In this document: positions 30,126-64,000 of the stretch, in pieces
Layout: every line of letters starts with the position of its first letter
Numbering within the stretch: position 1 is the first letter of the stretch
NCBI RefSeq assembly: GCF_040183065.1
Contig: NC_091128.1
Span: 171,898,244 to 171,962,243, forward strand
Length of the DNA stretch: 64,000 nt
Direction: 5' to 3'
Source of the DNA: Periplaneta americana
Taxonomy: Eukaryota > Arthropoda > Insecta > Blattodea > Blattidae
The notes under the pieces: generated by a model
What the model was told of the DNA's origin: nothing
Seen by the model: the letters and a program-made list of their open reading frames with translations, nothing else
The model's database searches: none
Position numbers and translations under genes: made by a program

Positions 30126-32995
30126 TCAAAATACATCACCATTCTTTGCTATGTGTTTGAGTTCAGAATCTCTATCTGAGACTTCTTGTAAGAGGTCCTC
30201 ATTCATCAAGGCCATCAAATATTTCAAATCTGATTCACTACTGTCTTCCTCTTGTATACTACAATGTGACAGTCTGCGCTCTGGAATATGACGACCCTTT
30301 GCTGAAGTACCACTGGTTCTGTACTGACTTCCACATGACGCATCTCTTTTGCTAGTACCTTCTTCTTCTTGTCTACTACAATGTGACAGTCTGTGCTCTG
30401 GAATATGATGACCCTTTGCTGAAGTACCATTGGTACTGTACTGACTTCCACATAGCACATCTCTTTTGCTAGTTCCTTCTTCTTGTGTACTACAATGTGA
30501 CAGTCTGTGCTCTGGAATATGATGCCCAATTGCTGAAGTACCATTGCTACTGTACTGACTTCCACATAGCACATCTCTTTTACTAGTTCCTTCTTCTTGT
30601 CTACTACAATGTGACAGTCTGTGCTCTGGAATATGATGACCCTTTGCTGAAGTACCATTGGTACTGTACTGACTTCCACATAGCACATCTCTTTTGCTAG
30701 TTCCTTCTTCTTGTCTACTACAATGTGACAATCTGTGCTCTGGAATATGATGACCCTTTGCTGAAGTACCATTGGTACTGTACTGACTTCCACATAGCAC
30801 ATCTCTTTTGCTAGTTCCTTCTTCTTGTGTACTACAATGTGACAGTCTGTGCTCTGAAATATGATGACCCTTTGCTGAAGTACCATTGGTACTGTACTGA
30901 CTTCCACATAGCACATCTCTTTTACTAGTACCTTCTTCTTCTGTACTACAATGTGACAGTCTGCGCTCTGGAATATGATGACCCTTTGCTGAAGTACCAT
31001 TGGTACTGTACTGACTTCCACATAGCACATCTCTTTTACTAGTACCTTCTTCTTCTGTACTACAATGTGACAGTCTGCGCTCTGGAATATGATGACCCTT
31101 TGCTGAAGTACCATTGGTACTGTACTGACTTCCACATAGCACATCTCTTTTGCTAGTTCCTTCTTCTTGTGTACTACAATGTGACAGTCTGTGCTCTGGA
31201 ATATGATGCCCATTTGCTGAAGTACCACTGCTTCTGTACTGACTTCCACATAGCACATCTCTTTTACTAGTTCCTTCTTCTTGTGTACTACAATGTGACA
31301 GTCTGTGCTCTGGAATATGATGCCCATTTGCTGAAGTACCACTGCTTCTGTACTGACTTCCACATAGCACATCTCTTTTGCTGGATCCTTCTTCTTGTGT
31401 ACTACAATGTGACAGTCTGTGCTCTGGAATATGATGCCCATTTGCTGAAGTACCACTGCTTTTGTACTGACTTCCACATAGCACATCTCTTTTACTAGTA
31501 CCTTCTTCTTCTTGTCTACTACAATGTGACAGTCTGTGCTCTGGAATATGATGACCCTTTGCTGAAGTACCACTGCTTTTGTACTGACTTCCACATAGCA
31601 CATCTCTTTTACTAGTTCCTTCTTCTTGTGTACTACAATGTGACAGTCTGTGCTCTGGAATATGATGCCCATTTGCTGAAGTACCACTGCTTTTGTACTG
31701 ACTTCCACATAGCACATCTCTTTTACTAGTACCTTCTTCTTCTTGTCTACTACAATGTGACAGTCTGTGCTCTGGAATATGATGACCCTTTGCTGAAGTA
31801 CCACTGCTTTTGTACTGACTTCCACATAGCACATCTCTTTTACTAGTACCTTCTTCTTGTGTACTACAATGTGACAGTCTGTGCTCTGGAATATGATGAC
31901 CCTTTGCTGAAGTACCATTGGTACTGTACTGACTTCCACATAGCACATCTCTTTTACTAGTACCTTCTTCTTGTGTACTACAATGTGACAGTCTGTGCTC
32001 TGGAATATGATGACCCTTTGCTGAAGTACCACTGCTTTTGTACTGATTTCCACGTGGCACATCTCTTTTACTAGTACCTTCTTCTTGTGTACTACAATGT
32101 GACAGTCTGTGCTCTGGAATATGACGACCCTTTGCTGAAGTAGCACTGCTACTGTACTGACTTCTACGTGGCACATCTCTTTCGCTAGTTCCTTCCACTC
32201 GTGTACTACAATAAGAGAGTTCGTGCTCTGGAATATGACGATCCTTTCCTGAAGTGCCATTGCTACTGTGCTGACTCCCATCTGTTCTGCAACTCCTTTC
32301 TTGGTCATCCTTCAGATTGACGCAACTTCTATTACTGTTTGGCACAACTTTTAATCTGTCCGTTATGTAAGAAAGACTACTAGTGTCCTGTTTATCACTA
32401 CATTGTTTTTTCGAATTTTCACTAAAAAGTTTGCCATTATCTGAAGAAGGCTTGTCACCCTGTTCTGTTTGCCTACCATTAGATCTCTGTTCTAAAATTC
32501 CAGAGTTGTAATCACTATCAGACAATGACACCTGCGGACAATGACTGTTGTCTGATTCACAGCTCGCCTCTGAGTATTCTGCCCTCATTACCGCGTCAGG
32601 AGAACTGGGTTCACATTGTTGTAATCTTTCTTGTATGCTTGTTGGCTTGTTTCGTGTCGCATTGATAGCTGCACTATTTTCAGTAGCAGTGTTACCATCC
32701 TTCTCTTTGTCTTCATTCTGCTTTTGTCTCTTAACACTGTCAGTGAAATATGGACACACTTTAAGCTGCTGGCTTCGCTCGTCAGAGACTGGTGTGACCT
32801 CGACCACTGATTGTTTCTGCGAGAAGAGCTTCTTGCGTTTGGTGGTGCGGATACGAGTCTGGGGAGGCGCAGATTCATAGGAAGAGCTAGAAACTGTACT
32901 GCTCTTGAAGCAACATGTGCACTCATTTGCACACATCTTTGACAATGGCTCTTTCAACTTAGAGGATCTTCTCTTCTTGTTTTTCAGCTTGGAAC
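30126..32995 (-). CDS. TERF2IP: RAP1-like exon 10: basic region, 18x38-aa repeats, C terminus
   Basis: Residues 347-1301; the acceptor is TCTGTTTCCAG. It opens with basic patches ([13 protein letters not shown], then TTKRKKL) that look like nuclear localisation signals and a Cys cluster (CANECTCC). A Ser/Asp/Gln-rich, probably disordered stretch follows to about residue 595. Then come about 18 tandem units of 38 (sometimes 39) residues with core [11 protein letters not shown] and [12 protein letters not shown], one HH, one H, one HC and a second Cys per unit. The last 35 residues ([19 protein letters not shown] onward) are not repetitive and may be helical. I cannot match the C terminus to the RAP1 RCT domain. 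Codon-level variation between units is low, suggesting recent amplification. Confidence 0.8.
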
Positions 32996-35900
32996 CTGGA
33001 AACAGAAAACCCAGACAAATCAGAGGTTGGCACTAGAATTTGTCAATTGAAAGACTTTTTTTATGTAGAACTTCTTCTTGAAGGTGAAGGGGGTACATAG
33101 TTTGTTAAGAAGCGATATCTGCTCTCTATCCAACTATAAGTGGAGTAAGCATTTAAAATGTTGTATTTTTTTTGGGAGATCTGAAATTACTATTATTATT
33201 ATTATTACACCAAGATAATATATTATTGATATCTACTTGTAAATATGCAATCAGTGTTACTAGGTATCCCGATTCCCCTGGTGAAATCCTTAATCCTGAT
33301 TATAGCCAGTCAGGATTCCTAAAAATTCCGATTTTACAGATATTAGAGCATATTTAAAGAAATTTACCTGTATTTCCAATTCTCTAATATTTTGATTTAT
33401 ACATTGACTCAAGTAGTATCACTGTAAAAGAGGTAATTCAGCTGATGGTCATAAGGCAATGCTACTTGCAAGACGATGCTTCCCAAAGTTCTATTACAGT
33501 GTTGGCTAATTTGTTTCAATATCTAGTCGCTGTTCTTGCAGTTAGTAAACGGTGCATATTTTAAATTCGTTCAGCGGCAAAAAAAGATAGCACCTTTGAC
33601 ATCGTATTTTACACTAATGACAAGCATTATATATTACTTGTGTTTTATAGTTTAGTGAATTATTTAAACATGCCCTTATCCGACAGTGAAACTACTGCAG
33701 TTCCAGTTCCAAAAAAAAAAAAAGTTGCTAAGAAAATTTAACAGTGAATGGTTAAACATATTCGTGGTTAATAAAATGAAAAGACGATCATTGAGCTTAC
33801 TGTACTGTGTGCCCTTCGTATTTTAGTATTTCTCATGGAAACGAAAATGACATTAAAAAGCATGCTAACACTTTAACATAAAAGTTCAATTCTACAGTCA
33901 GCTGTTTTGTCTTTCATAGTAATACAGAGCTATGGTTGTGAAACTTTAACTCTCATTTTGACAGAGGAACAGAGGTTAAGGATGTTCGAGAATAAGGTGT
34001 TTACGAAAATATTTGGGGCTAAGAGGGATGAAGTTACAGGAGAATGGAGAAAGCTACATAACGAAAAACTGCACGCATTGTATTCTTCACCTAACATAAT
34101 TAGGAACATTAAATCCAGACGTTTGAGATGGGTAGGGCATGTAGCACGTATGGTGAATCTACAAATGCATATAGAGTGTTAGTTGGAAGACCTTGGGGAG
34201 GCCAAGACGTAGATGGGAGGATAATATTAAAATGGATTTGTGGGAGGTGGGATATGATGGTGGGACTGAATTAATCTTGCTCAGAATAGGGACTGGTAAC
34301 GGGCTTATGTGAGAGTGGCAATGAACCTCGGGGTTCTTTAAAAGCCATTTATAAGTAAGTAGTACAGACAAAGAAAAGGTGATAGTTGCTGAAGCGTCAT
34401 TTGTGTATCATGTAGTTCAGCATAGTCGTAGTTATGTGTCCCCAGACTGTTTAGCAATTCATTCCTGCAGTTAATTTCAGATTCGAAAATTTGTAAGAAA
34501 TACTGATGTGGACGCAGAAAGGCAACAAAAATGAAGAAAGAGAAAATCTTGGAAATGTTTTAAGTTAGTTCCTGATATCCCAATTTCGCTTGGAGGAAAC
34601 TTGGCAACCCTACATATCCTTAATACAAGCTATTGTTTAAAATAATTTTAAATCATCAGCGAGCAATAAGCATTTAGAACAGGCCTGCACAAGGTTTGCG
34701 CTCTCCGAGCCGGCTTACAGCTCATGAGCGGAATGCAGATATTAGCTGTGCTCTGTATAAGGGTGAACTGGAAGAAGGGGTGATCTCGTACAAAATATAC
34801 ACAAAAGGAAGTATTATTATGAGTGTTTATGAAATGAATTCCCGTTCAGTGTTTGCAAAACTATCTTGGACTATTATTAATTAATAAAAAAATATTTATT
34901 TTACAGAAGTACCTAATAGAAATTCTATAGCTACTTAAATGTGCAATATCATTTTGTTACGTTTTTATTTATCTATCATTTTGTTATATTTTTATTTATC
35001 AGTACATCAAAACGAGGTTTTATGCTGTTGGCAGCTGAAAGGAACAGTAGCCTACTGATCGTAATGAAACATCAGTTACAGATGTTCGATGTCTGCCTTT
35101 ATTAAAGTTGATTATAGAAAACAGTTGCTCACAAATATAAATGTTGAGCCAAACATAGCAATCATTTTCACAGCCAGCCTGTGTAGTCGTGGACATTATT
35201 GCTAATGTTTAGTCCTGTACAACTCAACAAGGCTAGTAGTATTATTCAAACGATCTTTAGCTCTTAGGTCACATTGAAGATCAGTAAGTTCGAGCTGTAA
35301 ATCGTTAAATGTTACGTACCGTCTTTTAGATTCCTCCATACTGTACTGTAGCAGTAGGTAAGCAACGTGAAACAATTACTGAGAATAGGCCTACACACTG
35401 CACTCCACTAGATAACTGAGTGGTTGTTTCCCCTCTCCTCTACCTATAGCACGTCTATGTCATTCTGACGTATCTTCCTCTCCGTTTCGGCAAGCTGTAA
35501 ACACCGCTCTCCCGCTGCGAAGAAGCGCGGGCACTCGTTGAGCGCTGTTTGTGCAGGTATGATTTAGAATGAGATTCATGCTTCCAGATCTAGTGTCACT
35601 AGTAGATACTGAATACTGCAGCAGCCAACAATTCCGACCCACCTGTTGCTGTGCTGTGCATCATTTTCTGCACTGTTTCAGGTGGCAGATACCTGTCCAA
35701 CTTGTTGACTAAGACTTTTCGGTATCTCTCTTTCATGGAATGCCAAGTACGACCTGAAAAGTAAAATACTGTGAGAAATGTATTGCTAGTAAGTGAGCAC
35801 ATTAATATATCGTACAGAGTCACTTACCAGGGACAGCCTGCTTGCGTTCCATCAGCTTCCACAATTGCACACCTCCCACTTCTTGGTACCGTTTATTGCG

Positions 35901-38900
35901 TGCAACAAAATTGAGAAGAGCCTTGTCCTCGTCTTCTGTATAATAGTTTCTGTTCCTGAAAGATGAATAAACAATGTATTCATTTCTGTAAGTGTTGTTG
36001 TTGTTTTCTAATGCCAGGTGTTTGACAATAAAGTCATTTGACCTCTTGCACTCCAATACTTTTCAAAGATATTATCATGGCCAGCCACTGAAGCACAGAT
36101 TTTGAGGTGTTCCGAATCCATTTCTTGGTTTGAGTTGCACAATGGGCAGTTAGGGGACTGATATATTCCAATTCTATGCAGGTGTTTAGCCAAACAATCA
36201 TGGCCTGTTGCCAATCTAAATGCAGCTGCAGACGATTTTCGTGGTAAATCTAACTGTGGATTTTGATGCAGAGAGTTCCATTTTTTTCCCTTGGGATTGT
36301 GTTATCAAATTTTGTTTGTTGAAGTCTAAGTATGTAGATTTAATAAATCTCTTCACAGAGTAATACGTACATTTAGTAACAGGTCTGTAAGTAGCAGTGC
36401 TGCCCTTCTTTGCTAAAGCATCCGCATTCTCGTTTCCCAGGATTCCACAATGGGATGGTATCCATTGGAATACAATTCTTTTATTGAGTGATATTAATTG
36501 AGAGAGCATTTTAGTTATTTCTGCTGTTTAAGATGAAGGTGTGTGTTTAGAGACTATTGATAGAATAGCTGCTTTGGAGTCTGACAATATAACTGCATTC
36601 CTAAATTTATTGATGTGGCATAGAAGATTCCTGAGACATTCACTTATTGCAATGATTTCACCATTGCAATAAGTGAATGTAATTGCAATGGTGAAATCAT
36701 TGCAATAAGTGAATGTCTCAGGAATCTTTCTGTAAGTGTAAAAGAGTACATACGGGCTGTTCCGTATGAAATCGATCAGTAAAAAACCTCGCATTTTTTT
36801 AATACTCCAATTTATTCCCTACTTATACAAGGTGCTGAGGGGAGTGCATCTGCAAAAATATACTATCGAAAGTCAAACGGTTTTCATATTGTTGAGCGAC
36901 AAATTTAGCGTATTTTATAAAAACAAGCCTCTTTCAGCGCTCAGAACTCTGGAACCATTTACTGCAGAACATTGAACGAGAGCTTATTTTGAAGCTGACA
37001 TTTAGTAGGTTATGTTAAGAAGCAATCCTTATTTTTATTGTACACAGAGAGACAGATAATCTGATTTTACTTGCTTTTAGGCTTTTTGACAATTTGTAAA
37101 AATGTAAAACAATATTGAGAAAAAACCTTGCATTATTAAGAGGGATTTGGCATTGTTTGCTTAGTGGCTTGGCAATAAGTTTCGAGGGTATTAAATAGAT
37201 TATTTTCACACGTCTAGACTTGAACGGCGCAGTACCGCAAGCACTGGCCGAGAGCTGAAGATAAGCGAGCATTGGGCGTCATTTTACTCCTGTGTTTATG
37301 AAAACCTGTGATAAAGCTAGCACAGCCATGACTGCTAGACGACACATCACATGTTTATGTCTACTGGCCTTGGTTCCCTTGGCTAGCTCCCGCCTCACAG
37401 TCAGCTGGTTAGTTCACGCGTGTACTATTTATTTGCTTTATTTGATATTTTCAATACTTTCTTATCAACGTCCTACCAGTAAAAATATCTGTTTATTTGT
37501 ACTTTCAATGCGGAATCTAACCATATATTTTAAAAATATTTTTTCGTGGCCAAAGGTGTCTTAATGAAGAAAAATCTAAATTTCTCCATTTCTATAAAAA
37601 GTAAGAAAAACTGTTTACATGTCAATATAAACTTTAACTTCTCAGCATCAAAATAAACCATGATTTTGATCATTGGGTGAAAGGGTTTCGGAGTCACAAC
37701 AGTTTAAAGTTGCTAATTTTATGAAAATACGATAAATTTAAATATTATTAATTTAAACACTATTTCAAACTTTGCACAAAGCATTATATCAAAGTTGTCT
37801 ACAGACAGAAAGAGTTTTATTGTATTTAAAAAATTGCAAGGTCAATTTTCTCTATATTTCGGTCGATTTGAGATGGAATAGCCCATACAGTAAACCCTCC
37901 ATATAACACTCCCAATTATAATGCTATCCTGATCTTTAACACTAATTTTTTTCTGGTCAATTGACCCACTCCATAAGGAATGTTAAAATACCCCGCATAT
38001 AACACTCCTGTTCTTAATGTTTTCCTGTTTATTACAACCTTTCTTCCAGTCCTGGGCAAATGTTACCACATAATATGCGGGTCACTTATGGCAACTATTT
38101 TTTTCAGCAATCTATCACTTTTTACTTTTACCAAGTTAAATGTTACATTTTGAAAATGTTATGTCAGGAACAATGCTAAAAGGCCACCAACTTTAAGAAA
38201 TCTTTTTGGCAACAGACGAGGCTGTTTCATGTATTTTTTCTTGCTCAACTAAAGGATGACAGCAGCCAAAAATAGTGTCACACTAATTGTCTTAAATCTG
38301 AGGAAAAATTACTAATTTGTGTATGCGTTTTTTAAATTAATAAAAAGGTAAAGGTATCCCCGTAACATGCCATGAAGGCACTTGGGGGGCATGGAAGTAG
38401 AGCCCCATGCTTTCCATGACCTCGGCACTAGAATGAGGTGGTGTGGTCGGCACCACGCTCTGACCGCCTTTTACCCACGGTACTCAATTTTATAGGAGGC
38501 TGAGTGAACACCCATTAATATTCTAGTAAAATTCTATTTAATTTGCATCATTCCTAGTTGAATTGACTCATTGATACTAAACATGAAAAAAATCCAACCG
38601 CTTAGAAAATACTGAGTACGACAGCATGCCAGAAACCAGTTTTTCAGGATCATGGATGCTAGCATGTATTTCTGTATAAATCTCGAAATTAAAATACTGC
38701 AACACAATACCTTCTCATTCTGTTTTATGTATTTACTTATGCCTTTTAGAAAACCTGGAGGTTCATTGCCAAACTCACATAAGCCAGCCATGGGTCCCTA
38801 TCTTGAGCAAGATTAATCCAGTCCCTACCATCATATCCCACCTCCCTCAAATTAATTTTAATATTATCCTCCCATCTACGTTTTGGCCTCCCCAAAGGTC

Positions 38901-41900
38901 TTTTTCCCTCTGGCCTTGTAACTAACATTCTAGATATATGCATTTCTGGATTCACCCGTACACCTAACTCAAACGTCTGGATTTAATGTTGCTAATTATG
39001 TCAAGTGAAGAATACAATGCGTGCAGTTCTGCATTGTGTAACTTTCTCCATTCTTCTGTAACTTCATACCCATTTCAAACGTCTGGATTTAATGTTCCTA
39101 ATTATGCCAGGTGAAGAATACAATGCGTGCAGTTCTGTGTTGTGTAACTTTCTCCATTCTTCTGTAACTTCATACCCATTTCAAACATCTGGATTTAATG
39201 TTCCTAATTACGTCAGGTGAAGAATACAATGCGTGCAGTTCTGCATTGTGTAACTTTCTCCATTCTCCTGTAACTTCATCCCCATCTCAAACGTCTGGAT
39301 TTAATGTTCCTAATTATGCCAGGTGAAGAATACAATGCGTGCAATTCTGTGTTGTGTAACTTTCTCCATTCTTCTGTAACTTCATAACCATTTCAAACGT
39401 CTAGATTTAATGTTCCTAATTATGTCAGGTGAAGAATACAATGCGTGCAGTTCTGCATTGTGTAACTTTCTCCATTCTCCTGTAACTTCATCCCCATCTC
39501 AAACGTCTGGATTTAATGTTCCTAATTATGCCAGGTGAAGAATACAATGCGTGCAATTCTGTGTTGTGTAACTTTCTCCATTCTTCTGTAACTTCATAAC
39601 CATTTCAAACGTCTAGATTTAATGTTCCTAATTATGCCAGGTGAAGAATACAATGCGTGCAGTTCTGTGTTGTGTAACTTTCTCCATTCTCCTGTAACTT
39701 CATACTCATCTCAAACGTCTGGATTTAATGTTCCTAATTATGTCAGGTGAAGAATACAATGCGTGCAGTCCTGTGTTGTGTAACTTTCTCCATTCTCCTG
39801 TAACTTCATACCCATCTCAAACGTCTGGATTTAATGTTCCTAATTATGTCAGGTGAAGAATACAATGCGTGCAGTTCTGTGTTGTGTAACTTTCTCCATT
39901 CTCCTGTAACTTCATACTCATCTCAAACGTCTGGATTTAATGTTCCTAATTATGTCAGGTGAAGAATACAATGCGTGCAGTCCTGTGTTGTGTAACTTTC
40001 TCCATTCTCCTGTAACTTCATACCCATCTCAAACGTCTGGATTTAATGTTCCTAATTATGTCAGGTGAAGAATACAATGCGTGCAGTTCTGTGTTGTGTA
40101 ACTTTCTCCATTCTCCTGTAACTTCATACCCATCTCAAACGTCTGGATTTAATGTTCCTAATTATGTCAGGTGAAGAATACAATGCGTGCAGTCCTGTGT
40201 TGTGTAACTTTGTCCATTCTCCTGTAACTTCATCCCTTTTTTTAAATATCAGCAATAAAAAGTATATGTCAAATACTGTGTGTACAGGAGATAAATTGGT
40301 ATAACTTAACCTGTTCTTATTAAGCAATTTTAATTAGAGGATACTGACCTAGCTTGCATACTGTCAGACTCTTGGGACTGCTTTCTCTTTGAATTCTCTT
40401 TTTGATGCTCCTCCATTAATGTGTGTTTCCGAATGCTAGAATGAAACAGAATTACGATAGGTCATTATTTGTAGTCTATCATTTAGACTTAATACTTCAT
40501 TTGAACATGCATGCATGTAAAATATTGTGAGAGATAACTTGGCATGTTTAAATAACAATACTTCTTGAAGGTACTTCAATTGTTCCTAGGATATGTAGAA
40601 ATTTTTGGTCCTAATTTTATACACACAGTGGTCGAAATTGATGGCAAGAAAGCTAGTACAAAAGTCATTAGGAGTAACTACTGAAGCTTTCCTGGCAACG
40701 TGATAATTCGAAATTTTCTCGGGCTTCCAGCCAGGTCATAAGTTGGTGATCCAGCGACGTTTTGAGGATGTTCATCTTCCTCATCAAGATGAACATCCTC
40801 GAAACGTTGGTGGATCACCAACTTATGACCTGGCTGGAAGCCCGAGAAAATTTCGAGTCATTAGGAGTGTTTTGCAATGTCACTATAATTTTCATAGTTT
40901 TTCAAACTAATTCCCACCACACGATACATTTCTCCATTCTTCTAAACAAGTCACTAAATCAACTCCGCCATTTATCTTCTAGCAGTTTTGCATACTTCTC
41001 TTCCCATACTGCCAGAAGCTCATCTGCTCTAAAATGTTGTGTTGTTCACTACAGTGTATGTATTATGTGTAATTTTTCCTGAATAAAACAGAAACTGTCT
41101 GCTACTGTTCAAAACGGAAACAATATTTTGGACACACACTATATTTTGTAACTATATTTTGAAACAGCGTGTAATTTCAAGGAATATACGAAATATGTAG
41201 GTCACTAAGATAAAAACAAGTTTTCTTTCCAAAATTCTAGAGGGTACGAGGATGTGTTGGCCTGTCGGTCATAAATTTTATTACCCTGTTGACTAGGCAG
41301 ACGAGTCCCTTCAGAGATTTTCAATGCTTCACACCCGTATACTGTCGTAGGTAAACAGAGAGCAAGCGTAGTGATTTCCAGGTAAAAAAAAAAAGTTGCA
41401 TAAAATGTGGCATTAACATTAAGTGATGAAGTAAAAGTTATCGAGATAAAGGAAAATTAGAAACAAAGTCTATGTGAAATAATATTGAAGTACAGTTGTG
41501 GAAAACTCAGGTGTGACACTTTAAAAAATAAAGCTCATAATGAGTGAGTGGTGTGCGGCCAATATTGGTGACACAAAAGGAACCAGAAAGCAACTGTTTA
41601 TGTGAAAATAAATGTACTGTTGTGGGATTGGGTTCTTCATGACCTTTCAAAGAACAAGCCAATTTCTGGATCTGTTCTGCAAAGCAAGCTATTGAACTGG
41701 GAAAGAAATTAAATAAACCAGAATTCAAGGCTTCTAATAGATGGCTCCTAGTCCAATTAATTAATAATGTGCAGTGATATGCAGTACAGTATTAGAGTAT
41801 AGTGTTAGATATTAAATAGAATGAGATTAGTAAACTTTAGTAATGGTTAATGACTAATGAGTGAGTTACGATAATATTTATACAGAAAATGAGATTTTAA

Positions 41901-53517: not shown

Positions 53518-53571
<54 letters not shown>

Positions 53572-58337: not shown

Positions 58338-58371
<34 letters not shown>

Positions 58372-61300
58372 CCCCCCCCCCCCCCCGCGCGTGCGCTTGG
58401 ATCTGCCCATATTCCTTCCTAAAACTATCCTTATGTTATGGGTATTAAAAACTATACATGAAAGACATTGTGGTGCCTTGTTGCTATCACTTGTGGGGTT
58501 CAGACCTGTCTTCGGACAGTTGACTAAACAACAACAACAACAAACTCAAAACTGTTGTACTTCAGTATTAAAATTATGCTTTATCATAATACAAACCAGG
58601 CCACTGGCATATCTCAGTCAGATGAGGTGCTTGCCTGCTGATCTGAAGTTGCGCTCGGTCATGGGTTCGATTCCCACTAGGGCTGATTACTTGGTTGGGT
58701 TTTTTCCGAGGTTTCCCCCCAACCATAAGGTAAATGTCAGGTAATCTATGACGAATCCTCGACCTCATCTTGCTAAATACTATCCCGCTAACACCAAATC
58801 TATCGACAGTAAATAACATAGTTGATACAGCGTTGTTAAATAATCAAGTAAAAAAATACAAACACCAATGAAATTTTGCATCAGTAATGCGAAATAGTAC
58901 GAAATGGAACTATAAAAATTGGAGATTTATCCTTCGAAGAGGTGGAAAAATTCAAATATCTTGAAGCAACAGTAACAAATATAAATGACACTCGGGAGGA
59001 AATTAAACGCAGAATAAATATGGGAAATGCGTGTTATTATTCGGTTGAGAAGCTTTTGTCATCTAGTCTTCTGTCGAAAAATCTGAAAGTTAGAATTTAT
59101 AAAACAGTTATATTACCGGTTCTTCTGTATGGTTGTGAAACTTGGACTCTCACTTTGAGAGAGGAACAGAGATTAAGGGTTTTTGAGAATAAGGTTCTTA
59201 GGAATATATTTGGGGATAAGAGGGATGAAGTTACAGGAGAATGGAGAAAGTTACACAACACAGAGCTGCACGCATTGTATACTTCACCTGACATAATTAG
59301 GACCATAAAATCCAGATGTTTGAGATGGGCAGGACATGTAGCACGTATGGGCGAATCCAGAAATGCATATAGAGTGTTAGTTGGGAGGCCGGAGGGCAAA
59401 AGACCTTTGGAGAGGCCGAGACATAGATGGGAAGATAATATTAAAATGGATTTGAGGGAGGTGGGATATGATGGTAGAGACTGGATTAATCTTGCTCAGG
59501 ATAGGGACCGATGGCGGGCTTATGTGAGGGCGGCAATGAACCTCTGGGTTCCTTAAAAGTCAGTAAGTAAGTAAGTAATGCGAAGTCCTGCAAGACTAAG
59601 AAAAAGACAGAAAATCAGAAAGATTGGAGAATGCTGGGTTTACAGTGAAACATCTGCCTTTGGCAGAAAACTATGTATGAATGAATGCAAAGTCTAAAGC
59701 AGAGGCATAAAACAAAATTTTCCTCATTAATTGTGGTAACTTTCGAGGAATATCACTTTTGTTGACGTCGTACAAAATTTTGTCCAATATTCTTTTGAGA
59801 AGATTAACTCCGTACGTAGATGAAATTATTGGGGATCATCAGTGCGGCATAATAGATCGACTATTGATCAGATTTTTTGTATTCGACAGATAATGGAGAA
59901 AAAATGGGAGTATAAGGGTACAGTACATCAGTTATTCATAGATTTCAAAAAGGCATATGACTTGGTTAAGAGGGAAGTATTATATGATATTCTTATTGAA
60001 TTTGGTATTCCCAAGAAACTAGTTCGATTAATTAAAATGTGTCTCAGTGAAACATACAGCAGAGTCCATATAGGTCAGTTTCTATCTGATGCTTTTCCAA
60101 TTCACTGCGGGCTAAAGCAGGGAGATGTACTATCACCTTTACTTTTTAACTTCGCTCTAGAATATGCCATAAGGAAAGTTCAGGATAACAGGCAGGGTTT
60201 GGAATTGAACGGGTTACATCAGCTTCTTGTCTATGCAGATGACGTGAATATGTTAGGAGAAAATACACAAACGATTAGGGAAAACACGGAAATTTTACTT
60301 GAAGCAAGTAAAGTGATCGGTTTGGAAGTAAATCCCGAAAAGACAAAGTATATGATTATGTCTCGTGACCAAAATATTGTACGAAATGGAAATATAAAAA
60401 TTGGATATTTATCCTTCGAAGAGGTGGAAAAATTCAAATATCTTGGAGCAACAGTAACAAATATAAATGACACTCGGGAGGAAATTAAACGCAGAATAAA
60501 TATGGGAAATGCATGTTATTATTCGGTTGAGAAGCTTTTATCATCTAGTCTGCTGTCCAAAAATCTGAAAGTTAGAATTTATAAAACAGTTATATTACCA
60601 GTTCTTCTGTATGGTTGTGAAACTTGGACTCTCACTTTGAGAGAGGAACATAGGTTAAGGGTGTTTGAGAATAAGGTTCTTAGGAAAATATTTGGGGCTA
60701 AGCGGGATAAAGTTACAGGAGAATGGAGAAAGTTACACAACACAGAACTGCACACATTGTATTCTTCACCTAACATAATTAGGAACTTAAAATCCAGACG
60801 TTTGAGATGGGCAGGGCATGTAGCACGTATGGGCGAATCCAGAAATGCATATAGAGTGTTAGTTGGGAGACCGGAGGGAAAAATACCTTTAGGGAGGCCG
60901 AGACGTAGATGGGAGGATAATATTAAAACGGATTTGAGGGAGGTGGGGTGTGATGATAGAGACTGGATTAATCTTGCACAGGATAGGGACCAATGGCGGG
61001 CTTATGTGAGGGCGGCAATGAACCTTCAGGTTCCTTAAAAGCCATTTGTAAGTAAGTAAGTATTAATAATTTCTTACAAGATCCGTAATTCATTGTTGTA
61101 GTACATTTAAGCAATTGCACATAAAATTTCTAAGTAATGAAATGTGCAATTTTTTTTATTTTCAAATTTCCCTAGGTAGTTCATTTAAATCCTACCTGAA
61201 ATCCTTGATATCCAATATTTTATATCTGTCCGGCCTCCAGGCAAGAATGTAGTCTATTGAAAATACTTCATCTTCTCCAGCTGCAAATCCTGGTGTGGCA

Positions 61301-63485
61301 AGAACCAAAGTGTGTTCACCTGTCGAGGAACTCTCCACTGTACCAAAACCACGCTAGATTGCGGAAGAAAAATTTACACTACTCATAATAAAATTATTTG
61401 TAGGTTAAATATTTAGAATACAACAAATTAATATAGCCTACAGTTCTTGGAACTAAAATGATTCTTGCTTGAAATCGAATAAGTAAAAATTTCAAGGTTT
61501 TTAAAAATCGAAAACACTTTTTTTAACAATTTGGTTAATGCAAAAAAGTTGTAGGCCTAATTTTTTTGTAATTCGAAGATGGTACCGGTAGCACTAAATT
61601 TCTAAATCACCACAGTTAGACCAAAGTTATTTCAACGTCAAAATTATCTATAATGGATTTCAGCTTACTTTACCCATGATTATAGGAATTGACAACAATA
61701 AAACAAAATACTGTTGAATTTAATGAACATAATTAACTAATTATATTGTATGAAAATCATTGATATTGAAAAAAAAAATAAACATAAGAGTAATAGAAAA
61801 TAATGTTACAGATTTCAGCTAGAACTACTTTTTTACTTCTGCATTTTTAATTTTCTTTCTGCAGTAAGCCATAGGAGTACAATGTCATACAATTCGTTTG
61901 ATTCTGAGCCGGCACATACTTCACTACCTTTTTCACATGTAAGTACTTACTTTATGTGATAGACCTACATGGTAGTTAAGTGTTAGATAGGTACTTCAAT
62001 TTTTCCTGACATTTTTCAGAGGAAAGGTATAGGATACAACTCTTGAATAAATTTGTGAGCAACTAACTCTCCAGATGGAACACAGCAGAACTCCTTAAAA
62101 CTGAATGGGGCAAACATAGCCCTTACATTAAGTATCAAGTTTTCCTAAGTACAGTAAACATCTCTGTCAACAAAAAAGAAACAGTTTAACCGAAACATGT
62201 AAATCGTATAAATGGATTTATATAAAGATATTCCAAACTTACGCTATGTACTGTATTTAAGAAATACAAAATTTACATAATGATGTACGGTACACTCATA
62301 TTAGGCCTATATTTATTTTTAATTTAACAATTTATTGGCAAAATATAATAGCAAGGTAGAAGCATTTCCGAAGACAAGTAGTCACGAAGCAGGTTTAGAG
62401 GAATGTATGCAAGGGCAACAACATATCCCATTGCTTAAGCAAGCTGACTAAACTCATTTATAGCACTAAACAGACACTGTAAGTAGTATGATGTTAATAA
62501 ATTGTGTGAAACAGACGTATAACCAGAGCTACTTGATCAGCCTTAATACATTTATTTTATTCTTGATCCTGTTTCAGGCATCCATACCGCAATTTACACC
62601 ACTTGCAAACATAATATTTCAAAGCTAACACTGCCCAGATAGGTCTACATTTTATGTAAAGTTACATTATGGATGAAGAAAGATTAATATATGGTAGTCA
62701 CATTTATTTTACAATTAATATGTACCTATTTCTTTCATACTGTAAATTTACCTTCTAGCACTGTCAAAATTATCAGCATTTACACAAAAGTACACTAATT
62801 TGAGACTGGGTGCCAACTGTAAGAAGTCCCACTGTTCCCTAATTCTGCTTAGGCCTACATTATTAATAATTAACTATTAATTTAATGTAGCCTAGGCCTA
62901 AGCTTATTCCTGCTGAAAGTGTTCCACAATTTTTATTTGTGTAACATTTGGAGTTCTTAGGAAAATATTTTAACATTTGTAACGAAACTATAGGACCTAC
63001 ACAACCTAAATAGGAATTTGAATGACAATAATGCTTATTATTACAAAAGGGTTTTATATAAAAAATAAATAAACAACAGAAAGATCACGAGCATCGTGTG
63101 ATGTTACAGGAGCAGGCCTTCAGTCATGAACCAAGTTTTACGGTAACACGTTTCACAGGGCTTGAAGAAAATAAATTGTTAGTAGCAATATTTCCGCAAA
63201 TGTATGCTAGGAATGATACATCCACTGTCATAATTTATATACGTATTTATCCTGTGTTATGAAACTTCATCACCAAATACCATGCATATAGCTTGTTTGG
63301 TTATGTCATGAGAATGTTATGTAAACAACGTTACAAAAAGTTCTATAGGTTATTGTACTTGCTTCAATTATTTCTGCAACTTTTTTCTTTTCTGGACAAT
63401 CGTGTATAAAGAATCGGTAGGGATCGCCCTTATAATTCCTGAAAATCGGTATTTCAAAGGATGGCCCAAACGATTCCTCTTCCAT
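30126..63485 (-). CDS. TERF2IP: RAP1 (TERF2IP)-like telomere protein, 10 exons, 1301 aa
   Basis: Spliced gene assembled by eye. Coding exons on the minus strand, 5' to 3': 63485-63363, 61353-61196, 58124-58035, 49893-49777, 45887-45779, 43368-43256, 40435-40349, 35955-35828, 35753-35643, 32995-30126. They total 3906 nt, 1301 codons plus TGA, and all nine junction phases agree. Domains: BRCT about residues 14-120, Myb-1 about 163-217, Myb-2 about 268-328, basic patches just after 346, and tandem 38-aa repeats about 595-1266. RAP1 proteins bind telomeric chromatin in the nucleus; BRCT followed by Myb with this helix-3 pattern is their hallmark. The start is the first ATG after an in-frame TGA at 63545-63543. 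Introns 1 and 3 use GC donors, and intron 8 is only 74 bp. Odd points are two Mybs (vertebrate RAP1 has one), a very long repeat exon, and no recognisable RCT domain. Identification as RAP1 is from remembered family features; function is inferred. Confidence 0.83.
30240..32310 (-). repeat. Coding minisatellite, about 18 units of 114 (117) bp
   Basis: Tandem DNA repeat inside exon 10 of the RAP1-like gene. Each unit is 114 bp, or 117 bp where an extra Glu codon (EEE instead of EE) is present. Length is always a multiple of three, so copy-number change keeps the frame. Sub-variants ([24 protein letters not shown]) recur in blocks, pointing to unequal exchange of multi-unit segments. Confidence 0.9.
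33920..34370 (+). pseudogene. LINE-A 3' fragment
   Basis: Encodes [20 protein letters not shown], then [20 protein letters not shown], and after frameshifts the C-terminal region; ends TAAGTAAGTAG. Several indels (for example after [10 protein letters not shown]) mark it as old. Confidence 0.82.
34680..35561 (-). mobile_element. hAT relic with decayed transposase C terminus
   Basis: Ends CAGGCCTGCACAA and, inverted, CATACCTGCACAA; exact 8-bp TSD ATTTAGAA (34672-34679 and 35562-35569). On the minus strand, fragments read [17 protein letters not shown] (about 35310-35250) and, with a frameshift, AMFGSTF then [18 protein letters not shown] (about 35160-35080), the dimerisation region of hAT transposases. 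Confidence 0.83.
35643..35753 (-). CDS. TERF2IP: RAP1-like exon 9: second half of Myb-2
   Basis: Residues 310-345. The acceptor is ACTTTTCAG and the donor [24 protein letters not shown] is the recognition-helix motif of RAP1-type Myb domains. It is separated from exon 8 by a 74-bp intron, much shorter than the 2-8 kb introns elsewhere in the gene. The intron interrupts Myb-2 between helices 2 and 3, nearly where intron 5 interrupts Myb-1, though phases differ (1 versus 0). Confidence 0.84.
35828..35955 (-). CDS. TERF2IP: RAP1-like exon 8: first half of Myb-2
   Basis: Residues 267-308. The acceptor is CATCTTTCAG and the donor [25 protein letters not shown] is a textbook RAP1/Myb helix 1, and [10 protein letters not shown] carries the helix-2 Trp. 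The intron before it holds a LINE-E insertion whose TSD lies about 27 bp from the acceptor, leaving the polypyrimidine region untouched. Confidence 0.85.
35995..36726 (-). pseudogene. LINE-E fragment with inverted 5' end
   Basis: 12-bp TSD TTTCTGTAAGTG (35983-35994 and 36727-36738). Minus strand encodes the RNase H end ([18 protein letters not shown], 36470-36410) and the [18 protein letters not shown] tail, then an AAC tail at 36000. The 5' end is a hairpin: 45-bp arms 36626-36670 and 36682-36726 around an 11-bp spacer. Confidence 0.85.
36739..38727. other. Intron 7 sequence, mostly unassigned
   Basis: CAGTAAACCCTCCATATAAC at about 37887 looks like a pogo/Tigger-type terminal repeat, but I could not find its partner. 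38341-38520 (CCCCGTAACATGCCATGAAG onward) is GC-richer than its surroundings and probably an old SINE or repeat fragment. Open frames here (37015-37272, 37292-37564) show no motif. Confidence 0.35.
38728..40240 (-). pseudogene. LINE-A 3' fragment whose coding part became a satellite
   Basis: Minus strand C-terminal LINE-A sequence ([20 protein letters not shown], 38870-38810) leads into a tandem array built from the preceding LINE segment, and resumes at about 40235 with [20 protein letters not shown]. It lies in intron 7 of the RAP1-like gene. Confidence 0.82.
38965..40240. repeat. 107-bp LINE-derived tandem array, about 12 copies
   Basis: The marker AATACAATGCGTGCA recurs about every 107 bp from 39011 to about 40180. 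In the distal half, units with CAGTTCTGTG and CAGTCCTGTG alternate, so the effective repeat there is a dimer of about 214 bp. The unit spans the LINE-A codons for [19 protein letters not shown]; 107 is not a multiple of 3. Confidence 0.88.
40349..40435 (-). CDS. TERF2IP: RAP1-like exon 7: charged inter-Myb linker
   Basis: Residues 238-265. The acceptor is TTCATTCTAG and the donor GCTAG|GTCAGT. The peptide is highly charged and probably helical ([12 protein letters not shown]) and links the two Myb domains. It fits both neighbouring phases (2 in, 2 out). The 107-bp LINE-derived satellite starts about 110 bp downstream in the gene's direction. Confidence 0.7.
40676..40855. mobile_element. Foldback element (near-palindrome)
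   Basis: Arms of about 70 bp (CGAAATTTTCTCGGGCTTCC from 40709, inverse ending 40855) around a short centre CCTCATC. Flanked by a 13-bp direct repeat AGTCATTAGGAGT (40663-40675 and 40856-40868), so it is an insertion. A 33-bp non-palindromic lead precedes the left arm. Confidence 0.75.
41095..42140 (+). pseudogene. Pogo/Tigger-like transposase relic
   Basis: Plus-strand fragments read [15 protein letters not shown] (about 41415-41460), like a CENP-B/pogo helix-turn-helix, and [19 protein letters not shown] (about 41685-41735), like the second DNA-binding domain. The right end carries, inverted, CAGTGAAACCTGTTCAAGAC (about 42136-42117); a weaker counterpart ACTGTTCAAAACGGAA lies near 41105. 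Boundaries are approximate. Confidence 0.5.
42905..43148 (+). mobile_element. SINE-3 copy
   Basis: A box TAGCTCGGTCGG, decayed B box (GATCGATTCT), body to ATAGTAGTTGATAC and an A-rich end. Short direct repeat AATGTTA flanks it. It ends about 108 bp before the exon 6 donor region in plus coordinates. Confidence 0.78.
43256..43368 (-). CDS. TERF2IP: RAP1-like exon 6: second half of Myb-1
   Basis: Residues 200-236 plus two bases. The acceptor is [24 protein letters not shown] is a RAP1-type third helix, the counterpart of SW-x-SLKDRYLKHL in vertebrates. The donor is AGCAT|GTAATT. If intron 6 is retained, the frame reads ATG then TAA at the junction, giving a protein that stops right after Myb-1; spliced, it continues in exon 7 with Ile. 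Confidence 0.76.
43369..44529. other. Intron 5 sequence, nothing recognised
   Basis: 44166-44348 is a diverged short tandem (ATATTTTGAAATATATT-like units) that yields spurious open frames on both strands. Otherwise no feature. Confidence 0.4.
44530..45319 (+). pseudogene. LINE-A 3' half
   Basis: Encodes the RT thumb and C-terminal region: [39 protein letters not shown], a frameshift near 44810, then [18 protein letters not shown] to the stop at 45300 and an AAGT tail. Lies in intron 5. Confidence 0.88.
45779..45887 (-). CDS. TERF2IP: RAP1-like exon 5: first half of Myb-1
   Basis: Residues 164-199. The acceptor is GACATTGCAG and the donor [23 protein letters not shown] aligns with helix 1 of RAP1 Myb domains, which start with an aromatic-Thr pair and carry an acidic/Asp-rich helix. 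[10 protein letters not shown] aligns with the conserved Trp of helix 2. The acidic ED pair of helix 1 is weakened here to VEQ, so this domain is more divergent than Myb-2. Confidence 0.78.
46091..47322 (-). mobile_element. hAT-like element with CGGBP1-type transposase relic
   Basis: Ends TAGACCTCGG...CCGAGGTCTA with AAAATAGGT-type repeats next to both. Flanking 8-mers TATGAGTC and CATGACTT match only 5 of 8. It resembles the element at 19090-20363 in layout. Lies in intron 4. Confidence 0.65.
46249..47100 (-). pseudogene. hAT transposase relic, one in-frame stop
   Basis: Reads [20 protein letters not shown], then [22 protein letters not shown], stop TAG (46804-46806 region), and continues in the same frame with [18 protein letters not shown] to [20 protein letters not shown]. 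The stop replaces what is normally a Trp codon (TGG to TAG). The N-terminal half with the zinc finger and first catalytic residue is missing. The family resembles the CGGBP1-related hAT group. Confidence 0.75.
47331..48030. other. Intron 4, nothing recognised
   Basis: AT-rich; a (TA)n run lies at 47999-48016. No coding signal. Confidence 0.4.
48042..48302 (+). mobile_element. SINE-1 copy
   Basis: Complete tRNA-derived SINE with B box GGTTCGAATCC and A-rich tail; exact 11-bp TSD GACAGCCAGCA (48031-48041 and 48303-48313). Confidence 0.92.
48314..49298. other. Intron 4; unexplained 130-codon minus frame
   Basis: The minus frame from 49298 to 48907 is open for about 130 codons ([20 protein letters not shown], later [16 protein letters not shown]). 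I do not recognise it, and it runs into a foldback element upstream. No convincing splice signals; could be chance in AT-rich DNA or an old gene fragment. Confidence 0.3.
49299..49512. mobile_element. Foldback MITE, 214 bp, TA-flanked
   Basis: Almost fully palindromic: GGGGAGAGTCGGGTAGTATC at the left and its inverse GTATTRCCTGACTCTCCCC-like at the right, continuing through CATCTACCACCATACGG-type sequence and CGTAACC. TA on both sides (49297-49298, 49513-49514) suggests a Tc1/mariner-type mover. Confidence 0.75.
49777..49893 (-). CDS. TERF2IP: RAP1-like exon 4: acidic/Asn-rich linker
   Basis: Residues 125-162 with split codons at both ends. The acceptor is TTTTTTCTAG and the donor is AAAG|GTAAGT. 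The peptide is low-complexity and hydrophilic (runs such as [13 protein letters not shown]), as expected for the loop between BRCT and Myb in RAP1. A Harbinger-like element with TAA target duplication begins only 53 bp upstream of this exon. Confidence 0.7.
49947..50769. mobile_element. Harbinger-like MITE next to exon 4
   Basis: Inverted ends GGCCTATATTACACTATCAA of about 48 bp with few mismatches and TAA on both sides (49944-49946, 50770-50772). Contains an inner inverted repeat (50337-50523, AACCTGCTAAC arms). Starts 53 bp upstream of the exon 4 acceptor. Confidence 0.7.
50915..51720 (+). pseudogene. Penelope-like element C terminus, split by LINE-E
   Basis: [20 protein letters not shown] then [20 protein letters not shown], interrupted at 51093-51569, resuming [20 protein letters not shown]. 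This matches the end of the GIY-YIG endonuclease domain of Penelope-like elements (AKHI..NH, EILHI, LLEQYEI pattern). The purine-rich GGAGGAAGAGG tail after 51670 is non-coding. Confidence 0.7.
51093..51569 (-). pseudogene. LINE-E fragment
   Basis: 13-bp TSD CAATACGAAATAT (51080-51092 and 51570-51582). Encodes [20 protein letters not shown] (RNase H) and the [18 protein letters not shown] tail with frame breaks. 5' truncated; no inverted 5' end here. Confidence 0.86.
51765..52196. other. Intron 3, nothing recognised
   Basis: No coding or repeat feature that I can support. Confidence 0.4.
52197..52865 (-). pseudogene. LINE-C 3' fragment (CATT tail)
   Basis: Minus frame 52862-52235: [59 protein letters not shown], ending QALHGL-stop. 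The 3' tail is a TGAA/CATT repeat at 52197-52226. The C-terminal RLRWLGH pattern is that of RTE-like LINEs. The frame stays open for about 209 codons, so it is relatively young. Confidence 0.85.
53060..53290 (-). pseudogene. Internally deleted mariner transposase relic
   Basis: Minus strand: ATVFW-like start, [11 protein letters not shown] (middle of a mariner transposase), then directly [16 protein letters not shown] (near the C terminus) and a stop. The part carrying the second and third catalytic Asp is missing. TIRs not found. Confidence 0.6.
53500..53576. repeat. (TAG)n(TAA)n microsatellite
   Basis: Simple trinucleotide run immediately upstream of the LINE-D fragment. Confidence 0.9.
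53600..54730 (+). pseudogene. LINE-D reverse-transcriptase fragment (GAT tail)
   Basis: The plus frame 53678-54565 stays open 295 codons: [39 protein letters not shown], catalytic [44 protein letters not shown] frameshift near 54545 leads to [10 protein letters not shown] and [12 protein letters not shown]; the 3' end is a GATGATGAT tail at 54709-54727. Upstream frame ([10 protein letters not shown]-like, 53620-53650) is joined by a shift. Intron 3. Confidence 0.87.
54887..55489 (+). pseudogene. Decayed mariner, 603 bp
   Basis: TA-flanked ends CAGAGGATCGGAAAGTAACG and, inverted, CAAGGGAGGATCGAAAGGTA. Only the last third of the transposase remains: [16 protein letters not shown], where the third catalytic Asp (normally APSD) is now Gln, then [15 protein letters not shown]. 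Distinct family from the intact mariner. Confidence 0.78.
55843..56820 (+). mobile_element. Non-autonomous Helitron
   Basis: Starts TCTATACTAATAATA after an A and ends in CTAG before a T. The 3' end has a short GC-rich hairpin (GTGCAGCGGAGCGCAC, 56793-56808) about 8 bp before CTAG, the standard Helitron terminator. The internal CTGTCTGTCTG and ACCTTTTCACGCGATAATGG-like lead are typical of insect Helitrons. 978 bp, no Rep/helicase. Confidence 0.78.
56821..57478. other. Intron 3; open minus frame 57091-56786 not called
   Basis: The 101-codon minus frame [18 protein letters not shown] has a GCAAGT after SIK at about 56938, but no good acceptor and no fitting phase. I do not include it in the RAP1-like gene. 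Confidence 0.35.
57479..57750. repeat. Large inverted repeat with two tRNA-like units
   Basis: Arms of about 130 bp from AAATCAAGCTTTCAGGTATA (57480) to the inverse at 57746. Each arm contains a tRNA-like unit: TAGCTCAGTTGGTAGAGCGT (complete only in the left arm's inverse), a TTGGTACGTTAAACCAA arm and GGTTCGATGCC. The anticodon-type loop ACGTTAA lacks the usual T at position 33, so I do not call functional tRNA genes. Confidence 0.75.
57845..57990 (+). repeat. Third tRNA-like unit, direct orientation
   Basis: GTTCCCGGGTAGCTCAGTTG, the TTGGTACG...CCAA arm and GGTTCGATGCC in one piece, followed by GGAACAATTTTTCCCTCGAAA as in the inverted pair. It folds as a cloverleaf-like tRNA relative of about 75 nt. 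Ends 45 bp from exon 3. Confidence 0.65.
58035..58124 (-). CDS. TERF2IP: RAP1-like exon 3: linker after BRCT
   Basis: Codes for about 29 residues between BRCT and the first Myb, including [17 protein letters not shown]. The acceptor is TATCTTTCAG. The donor is ACAG|GCAAGT, a second GC donor with strong flanking match. Phase 2 joins exon 4 in frame, whereas the nearby GT would give a stop in exon 4. No domain is recognised in this exon alone. A third copy of a tRNA-like repeat sits immediately downstream, at about 57890-57985. Confidence 0.68.
58320..58392. repeat. (CA)n and C-run microsatellite
   Basis: CA dinucleotide run followed by about 16 C and GCGCGTGCGC. Likely unstable and hard to sequence exactly. 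Confidence 0.9.
58597..58854 (+). mobile_element. SINE-3 copy
   Basis: tRNA-like head with B box GGTTCGATTCC and 3' end CAGCGTTGTTAAATAATC; exact 9-bp TSD AATACAAAC (58588-58596 and 58855-58863). Intron 2. Confidence 0.88.
58864..59695 (+). pseudogene. LINE-B tail fragment split by LINE-A
   Basis: Sequence after 59585 (AGATTGGAGAATGCTGGGTT, GGCAGAAAACTATGTATGAA) is the LINE-B 3' end as at 28.0 kb. Its 5' remainder lies before 58894. Confidence 0.6.
58894..59576 (+). pseudogene. LINE-A 3' half with TSD
   Basis: The frame 58942-59556 stays open 204 codons: [20 protein letters not shown] to RAAMNLWVP-stop, then AAGT tail. 8-bp TSD AATGCGAA (58886-58893 and 59577-59584). Few lesions, so fairly young. 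Intron 2. Confidence 0.88.
59720..61066 (+). pseudogene. LINE-A longest copy: RT domain to C terminus
   Basis: Starts in [20 protein letters not shown] (59725), a one-base shift near 59845, then 398 open codons (59842-61038): [39 protein letters not shown], catalytic YADDVNML, the thumb [15 protein letters not shown], and the C-terminal [11 protein letters not shown] region. Ends with the AAGT tail. The endonuclease domain is absent (5' truncation). The family looks RTE-like. Best reference copy of LINE-A in the window; intron 2. Confidence 0.9.
61196..61353 (-). CDS. TERF2IP: RAP1-like exon 2: second half of BRCT
   Basis: Residues 42-93 plus two bases of codon 94. The acceptor is CAATCTAG and the donor is CAG|GTAGGA. 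RGFGTV continues the glycine turn of the BRCT fold. [10 protein letters not shown] matches the final BRCT helix, where vertebrate RAP1 has a YILDC-type motif. This exon and the Myb exons are the strongest evidence for the RAP1 identity. Confidence 0.82.
61354..63362. other. RAP1-like intron 1, no feature recognised
   Basis: About 2 kb of AT-rich sequence with no recognisable element; unusually free of SINEs and LINEs compared with the other introns. Confidence 0.5.
63363..63485 (-). CDS. TERF2IP: RAP1-like exon 1: start codon and first half of BRCT
   Basis: Encodes residues 1-41, starting [10 protein letters not shown]. The stretch [13 protein letters not shown] matches the first strand and helix of the RAP1 BRCT domain, where vertebrate proteins have an FYxRP-type motif. 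An in-frame TGA lies 60 nt upstream with no ATG between, so this is the first usable ATG. The donor is GAA|GCAAGT, a GC donor in otherwise ideal context; it ends on a whole codon. A GT donor four bases further on would put exon 2 out of frame and hit a stop. Confidence 0.78.
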
Positions 63486-63786: not shown

Positions 63787-63984
63787 TTTCGGGGTGTGTT
63801 GCAAAACCGATCGTGTATTAATAGCAATGGGCTTGCTCAGGGCTCTGGCTTGCTTGTTCACATTTTCTTTCATTGTTTCGGTCACAGACTTCTGACATGC
63901 TTCAATTTTGTATGAACGCAGTAATTGGCGCAAGATTGTGAAATACAATTGTCTGAAGGGAACATTATGCATACTTTCCTCCAT
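63739..63984 (-). other. Open frame upstream of RAP1-like gene, unknown
   Basis: 81 codons beginning MEESMHNVPFRQLYFTILRQ. The first 60 or so residues look protein-like (amphipathic, charged) but I recognise no family; the last part is MITE-E sequence. It may be part of an upstream gene cut by the window edge, or chance. Confidence 0.25.
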
Positions 63985-64000
63985 ACTTTAATTTTGTATG

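Follow-up and report, generated by a model that had tools for sequence, protein, structure and literature searches.

A RAP1-like gene with two Myb domains among mobile elements in the genome of the cockroach Periplaneta americana

The Rap1 proteins of budding yeast, which have two Myb domains, are described as binding DNA directly; the single-Myb RAP1 proteins of human and fission yeast are described as tethered by TRF2 and Taz1, respectively, through the RCT domain, and human RAP1 itself as binding DNA poorly (PMC4416457). According to a review, BRCT, Myb and RCT domains are common to all known RAP1 homologues (PMC10813129), which contrasts with the Rap1 of Candida albicans, presented in PMC4416457 as having no RCT. 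In human RAP1, K39, R40, R41 and R55 are reported to make up the patch through which the BRCT domain lies on KU and excludes ligase 4, with R133 as the arm of the Myb domain that enters the minor groove; the structure models that this work names in addition are from salmon, sea urchin, anemone and Trichoplax, with no arthropod among them (PMC12221994). As for arthropods, a BLAST survey of 2014 covering two aphids, four other insects and two mites did not find POT1, TRF1, TRF2, RAP1, TPP1 or TIN2 in any of them and concludes that the arthropod genomes of that time lack the shelterin genes (PMC4296714), and a survey of 129 insects published in 2022 calls for characterising the telomere-binding proteins of Hymenoptera (PMC8977481). 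The cells of cockroaches are reported to have TTAGG telomeres and telomerase (PMC10590340). By these accounts, what coats the double-stranded TTAGG telomeres of insects is an open matter (PMC4296714, PMC8977481), and our literature search had no paper on insect RAP1 among the matches listed. Here we describe a RAP1-like gene on the minus strand of a 64,000-nucleotide stretch (the window) of the Periplaneta americana genome (assembly GCF_040183065.1, contig NC_091128.1, positions 171,898,244 to 171,962,243), which is very probably a real RAP1 gene of an insect and single-copy as far as searched.

Gene model and domain identity

The gene was rebuilt from the minus-strand open frames and the sequence at the frame edges, independently of an earlier exon list, and it runs from 63485 to 30126 with ten exons and nine introns, one of which is of the GC-AG type (Table 1). 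The coding sequence of 3990 nt encodes 1329 amino acid residues, with a single stop at its end and none inside the 1329 codons. From the N-terminus to the C-terminus, the protein consists of a BRCT domain, a linker, two Myb domains (Myb1 and Myb2), a basic region and about 18 copies of a 38-residue repeat. This layout had been given in the original prediction, made from the sequence without database searches, and was recovered in the rebuilt protein, as were the end points (63485, the ATG, and 30126, the end of the stop codon), at which the agreement was compared. Its description of ten exons with good splice sites and matching phases holds for the number of exons and the phases, but the donor of exon 1 is GC, several sites are moderate and the two linker exons are not backed by homology.

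Search of the joined protein with Myb_Rap1 (PF08914), which together with a BRCT search had been proposed as a check of the gene, gave an E value of 2.7e-16 with two matching stretches in the N-terminal 374 residues of the ten-exon form and 6.6e-16 in the form built from eight exons, and Myb2 alone reached 4.3e-13 (49.9 bits, the cut-off being 27.1). The corresponding values for BRCT_2 (PF16589) are 0.0052 for the BRCT alone and 0.031 in the ten-exon N-terminus. When 177,635 distinct PDB sequences were searched with phmmer, all three matches at E<1 were human RAP1, for the 8-exon and ten-exon forms alike, with 8rd4 at 4.7e-10, 1fex at 3.5e-5 and 7oz0 at 0.0069 for the ten-exon N-terminus. Moreover, the order is collinear with human RAP1, where, in the 8-exon numbering, BRCT residues 5-91 lie on human 11-97 (7oz0) and Myb2 residues 189-263 on human 123-197 (8rd4). 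With the BRCT alone (exons 1 and 2), human RAP1 (0.0025 and 0.008) was the sole BRCT protein matched in the PDB up to E 10, the other four rows being melanin-pathway oxidases (0.66 to 0.82); the profile check therefore went well for the Myb and, through the PDB, for the BRCT. Myb2 alone gave nine PDB rows, with 1fex at 2.2e-6, 8rd4 at 4.6e-6, eIF2-alpha at 0.038, yeast Rap1 at 0.18 to 0.41 and PARP1 from 0.35. Thus the protein has a PF08914 Myb and a RAP1-type BRCT at the N-terminus, preceding the Myb, which are features of the RAP1 family, and its two tandem Mybs (exons 5-6 and 8-9) are a feature of the yeast-type Rap1 and not the single Myb of the vertebrate type. The partners for the sequence comparison were human and yeast PDB chains. 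Myb1 scores 99 when compared with Myb2 and 47 with the human Myb, and the net charge is +6 for Myb2, +4 for Myb1 and +2 for the human Myb. Nothing relevant was matched in NCBIfam, and a weak match of DUF7589 on Myb1 (0.012) was not adopted as its identity. A profile of the human Myb, Myb1 and Myb2 found only the four known exon segments in the window, those exons being part of the profile itself, and no third Myb, the rest having E>=1; a candidate Myb segment at 45637-45524 (minus strand) was rejected, its score being reached by 75 of 100 shuffles.

Eight of the exons (1, 2 and 5 to 10, hereafter the core) are firm, and the two linker exons (3 and 4) are probable, the evidence for them being splice sites and phase. 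In the core, the phases agree at all seven junctions and GT donors are used at six of them, the first donor being GC in a gcaagt context. Scored with a splice matrix, the sites of the core fall between the top 0.1% and the top 9.6% of the gene's GT or AG dinucleotides; the matrix does not score the +2 base, so that the rank of the GC donor of exon 1 is flattered. The acceptors of exon 2 (top 9.2% of AGs), exon 5 (5.6%) and exon 6 (7.3%) and the donor of exon 6 (top 9.6% of GTs) are only moderate; the acceptor of exon 10 ranks second among 2042 AGs. Seven introns were scanned for open, phase-preserving cassettes with acceptors in the top 4% and donors in the top 6%, and two were found, at 52001-51828 and 49893-49777, both inside the 15.3-kb intron between the BRCT and Myb1 exons. 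The background rate of such cassettes per 15.3 kb and per phase is 1.2 on the minus strand and 1.5 on the plus strand, which is about what chance gives in that length, and exons 3 and 4 are therefore only probable. When the cassettes of the whole minus strand of the window are ranked (15 rows), exon 4 comes second, directly after exon 9.

Table 1. Exons and repeats of the RAP1-like gene (positions in the window)
Feature	Position	Strand	Remarks
Exon 1	63363..63485	-	ATG start, first half of BRCT; donor GAA|gcaagt (GC-AG intron); part of the BRCT join control
Exon 2	61196..61353	-	Second half of BRCT; donor CAG|gtagga; best PDB match of the joined BRCT is human RAP1 7oz0, E 0.0025
Exon 3	51828..52001	-	Probable BRCT-Myb1 linker, phase 2 to 2; splice sites and open phase only
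Exon 4	49777..49893	-	Probable acidic linker, phase 2 to 2; donor AAG|gtaagt; no homology support
Exon 5	45779..45887	-	Myb1 helices 1-2, including FWKMLEEQE
Exon 6	43256..43368	-	Myb1 helix 3; automatic join with exon 5 scores 99 vs Myb2, 0/500 shuffles
Exon 7	40349..40435	-	Myb1-Myb2 linker, phase 2 to 2; one of the 15 cassette rows
Exon 8	35828..35955	-	Myb2 N-terminal arm and helices 1-2; donor CTG|gtaagt; best genome-wide PF08914 place listed
Exon 9	35643..35753	-	Myb2 helix 3; top minus-strand cassette row; Myb2 pair score 101, 0/300 shuffles
Exon 10	30126..32995	-	Basic unique part of 239 residues, repeats, short tail, stop
114-bp (38-residue) tandem repeats	30245..32280	-	17.8 copies, within exon 10

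Automatic joining of the exons and shuffle controls

Taken exon by exon, the exons of the gene are found unevenly. With the human Myb as query, the score of exon 8 was reached by none of 100 shuffles and that of exon 9 by two of 100; with the human BRCT, neither exon 1 nor exon 2 was in the six best rows, and 18 of 100 shuffles reached the score of the top row. Without joining, Pfam scans of the gene strand gave only exon 8 of Myb2 (E 0.001) and missed the exons of Myb1 and the BRCT. Pairs of exons were then joined by script. For the BRCT, an ATG exon and an internal exon were joined over 64000-45888 (minus strand) against the human BRCT if their sites were acceptable, their phases matched and the intron was shorter than 6 kb, and the top pick was exactly exons 1 and 2, with a score of 74, the maximum in 500 shuffles being 47; three other real stretches gave 27, 35 and 31. 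In a first run with tighter sites, exon 2 had been excluded by the threshold and exon 1 with a wrong partner scored 46 (maximum 36 in 60 shuffles); the thresholds were afterwards relaxed to admit the known sites, and donors of the form GCAAGT had been admitted because one had been seen, the shuffles being run at identical settings. Two internal exons joined over 61100-33001 (minus strand) gave exons 8 and 9 as Myb2 (maximum 45 in 300 shuffles). For Myb1, joined over 61100-36101 with exons 8 and 9 left out and with Myb2 and the human Myb as queries, exons 5 and 6 were picked with the Myb2 query (maximum 49 in 500 shuffles), and three other real stretches gave 28 to 42. Candidate joins were fewer in the shuffles (means of 84, 82 and 77) than on the real strand (198, 294 and 263 for BRCT, Myb2 and Myb1, respectively), and the other real stretches are therefore the fairer yardstick; six runs on them, with 115 to 287 joins, scored only 27 to 42.

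Exon 10, mobile elements and the genome

Exon 10 lies in a stop-to-stop frame of 968 codons, the longest frame in 100 dinucleotide shuffles of the window having 204. Each of its repeat units spans 38 or 39 whole codons; 18 are listed, 14 of them with 38 residues and four with 39. SQ occurs in 17 of the 18 units and TQ in nine, the units are rich in histidine, and most have two cysteines. The S/TQ count is 26, vs 8.5 expected, and these are not 26 separate events, since one unit was copied many times. The repeat region is also open in a second minus-strand frame (30224-32311, 695 codons), as expected from the 114-bp period. Matches of SSB_1 (1.8e-21) and PriB_gamma (1.1e-18) on exon 10 were rejected as artefacts, since their scores are sums over about 18 repeats and no stretch passes alone. 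Profile searches, which can miss divergent RCTs, revealed no RCT (Rap1_C, PF11626) in exon 10 or its tail, in the genome or in a three-frame scan of the minus strand outside 9901-10299, 30100-32999, 52800-53999 and 63900-64000. The 33 to 38 residues after the last repeat are too short for an RCT, Rap1_C having 84 positions.

The gene had been described as hidden among mobile elements, which agrees with what its introns hold, namely RNase H, hAT-like and tandem-repeat debris and, judged by eye, reverse-transcriptase frames on the plus strand. The second intron contains a 404-codon frame at 59824-61038 (plus strand), reverse-transcriptase-like by eye, and related frames lie at 58888-59556 and 44511-45300. 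A transposase fragment at 46252-47091 (minus strand), within the intron that separates exons 4 and 5, matches DUF659 with E 0.0032, below the cut-off, and we take it to be hAT-like. The intron between exons 7 and 8 has a tandem array of a 106-bp unit at 38968-40233 (11.9 copies, 94% matches), whose minus-strand reading recurs in the reverse-transcriptase frames of the window; a Cas12f1-like_TNB match in all three frames of an intron, with no stretch passing in any of them, was rejected and fits this array. Downstream of the gene, there is a mariner-type transposase at 22250-22969 (minus strand), its place being derived from the matched residues (Transposase_1, 3.5e-23; HTH_48, 3.7e-6), and an 88-bp unit is repeated five times at 17449-17888, an array that is probably very recent because its copies match at 100%. 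No Pfam match was found on the strand of the gene in the 9.9 kb upstream of the window. Short exons spread over 33 kb would explain why a gene of this kind escapes notice.

The genome searched has 3,231,669,367 bases (3.23 Gb) in 91 contigs, 17 of which are 138-229 Mb long. PF08914 had 17 candidates in it, three of which appear in the list at E 10. The leading one is exon 8, whose 25.1 bits (E 0.076) miss the cut-off of 27.1, and the next has E 1.23; at E 0.001 there was nothing genome-wide. With the 513-residue product of the core as query, eight matches fell inside the window and a single one, at E 4.74, outside it; no second or processed copy was found in this genome-wide search, in which scoring is limited to the best candidates. 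Among 35 stretches of 4 kb taken from contig ends, 11 are rich in CCTAA/TTAGG runs in telomeric orientation (CCTAA at the starts of contigs C4, C8 and C15; TTAGG at the ends of C1, C2, C3, C9, C10, C12, C14 and C17), eight consist of N throughout and 16 lack an array of this kind. The TTAGG at C12 lies at the far end of the chromosome that carries the gene. A telomerase RNA-binding domain was found in two exons on C8, at about 153.46 Mb (3.2e-9 and 8e-8). The 17 large contigs, the size and the TTAGG ends fit an insect, as had been supposed. Genome-wide, nothing above the cut-off was found for the TRF dimerisation domain (best E 1.49, with stops) in an exon-wise search of low power, and the human TRF2 Myb gave one place (E 0.068), which is SNAPC4, and no TRF in a search of the same kind. 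This SNAPC4 gene (L049:169-2772) has an open frame of 867 codons, and its closest SNAPC4 chain among the PDB sequences matches at 3.2e-60. Equally weak searches of the genome for POT1 and Rap1_C gave no matches. The searches were exon-wise and PF08914 reached just 0.076 on a real gene, and thus the absences of TRF, POT1 and RCT are only suggestive.

Proposed role, rival readings and known RAP1 systems

Considering these features, we take the locus to be the only RAP1 gene of an insect whose telomeres are of the TTAGG type, and it is probable, although well short of certain, that its protein binds double-stranded telomeric DNA directly. Myb1 and Myb2 would jointly grip the TTAGG repeats and take over the job that TRF2 has in vertebrates, and the arginine R296 in the N-terminal arm of Myb2 (R199 in the 8-exon form, corresponding to human R133) would reach into the minor groove. 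K33, K34 and K35 of the BRCT, which align with human K39, R40 and R41, would sit on KU and exclude ligase 4, so that ends are not joined; three of the four patch positions being basic, the parts for blocking end joining appear to be mostly kept. The repeat tail may be, at a guess, a flexible arm bearing S/TQ for partners or phosphorylation. DNA binding and telomere residence are what we infer from these likenesses, and the route to the telomere has most likely changed from a docking domain to a second DNA-binding domain. The original label of a RAP1/TERF2IP-like gene is supported as to RAP1, but it needs a limit because of the two Mybs and the lack of a recognisable RCT, which make the protein differ from vertebrate TERF2IP in its possible route to the telomere.

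Several results weigh against this reading. Myb1 alone is below the Pfam cut-off (17.7 vs 27.1 bits, E 0.0049) and has no match in the PDB sequences; with the human Myb as query, its join also picks exons 5 and 6 but barely beats the shuffles, the score of 47 being reached by two of 500. The match of the BRCT to BRCT_2 falls below the Pfam cut-off, and the position of human R55 is a serine. The silent differences among the repeats, counted over 14 of the 18 units (those of 38 residues), are only mildly in excess and no better than in a shifted frame, and for this reason no selection on the repeats is claimed. Furthermore, the low power of the exon-wise genome search makes the missing TRF, POT1 and RCT weak evidence.

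The most probable of the alternatives, though itself unlikely, is that this is a true RAP1 carried to the telomere by an undetected or unrelated substitute of TRF, the second Myb binding a protein or non-telomeric DNA. The RAP1 proteins of human and Schizosaccharomyces pombe are described as working in that way (PMC4416457, PMC10813129), Myb1 is diverged, and the absence of TRF comes from weak exon-wise searches; on the other side, the RCT through which such a RAP1 would be carried was not found in exon 10, in the scanned minus-strand frames or genome-wide, the 33 to 38 residues beyond the last repeat compare with 84 positions in Rap1_C, and both Mybs have more net charge than the human Myb. 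A RAP1-derived gene acting mainly off the telomere, as a regulator of transcription or of KU and non-homologous end joining at breaks, is improbable: the RAP1 of yeast and mammals is also reported in transcription regulation (PMC4416457) and three of the four KU-patch positions are basic here, but no other RAP1-Myb gene was found in this genome, which has TTAGG ends and telomerase. That the gene is decayed or unexpressed, as its 33-kb span full of mobile elements and its repeats without clear purifying selection might be taken to mean, is very improbable with 1329 stop-free codons, matching phases at all junctions and repeat units of 38 or 39 whole codons. Finally, the choice of exons by eye from noise is hardly credible and for the eight core exons already refuted in practice, since, for all that single BRCT exons were not distinct from shuffles, linker exons come at about the chance rate and join thresholds were loosened following the first run, automatic joining at the same thresholds was matched by 0/500, 0/300 and 0/500 shuffles and exon 8 is the best Rap1-Myb place in the genome.

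This protein is a candidate for the one that coats insect telomeres; if direct binding is true, it would be a second case of RAP1 as the DNA binder where TRF is not, and the one gene offers three separable predictions, namely DNA binding by two Mybs, contact with KU via the three lysines and recruitment free of TRF. As a tentative wider assumption, which we put forward as possible and no more, the insects, or at least this lineage, might have independently evolved a yeast-like telomere, in which TRF was lost or replaced, the Myb of RAP1 was duplicated to coat the TTAGG duplex, the RCT was exchanged for a repeat tail, and the BRCT block on KU-driven joining was kept.

As compared with known systems, the cockroach protein shares with human RAP1 (TERF2IP; 8rd4_D, 1fex, 7oz0) the order of a BRCT and then a Rap1-type Myb, the basic K39 R40 R41 as KKK and the R133 arm, and it differs in having two Mybs instead of one, no recognisable RCT, a long repeat tail and no TRF found in the genome. 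Trypanosoma brucei RAP1, likened here by description only, is stated to have BRCT, Myb and Myb-like domains as well, but it has an RCT and weak homology to other RAP1s (PMC10813129). TEBP-1 and TEBP-2 of Caenorhabditis elegans, with several predicted RAP1-like homeo-/Myb domains, are likewise described as ecdysozoan binders of double-stranded telomeres, but the cockroach protein has a BRCT, which the domain description in PMC8113555 does not mention for them. The analogue most alike in the way it works would be the Rap1 of budding yeasts, above all that of C. albicans, with a BRCT and two tandem Mybs and, according to the description in PMC4416457, also no RCT; its sequence likeness is weak (0.18 to 0.41, below the eIF2-alpha row at 0.038), however, and the telomere repeat of the cockroach is the short TTAGG. 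The resemblance of Myb1 to Myb2, far greater than to the human Myb (99 vs 47), suggests that Myb1 arose by a duplication separate from that in yeast. Thus, judged by its sequence, the two-Myb RAP1 without a recognisable RCT is a new variant within the known RAP1 family.

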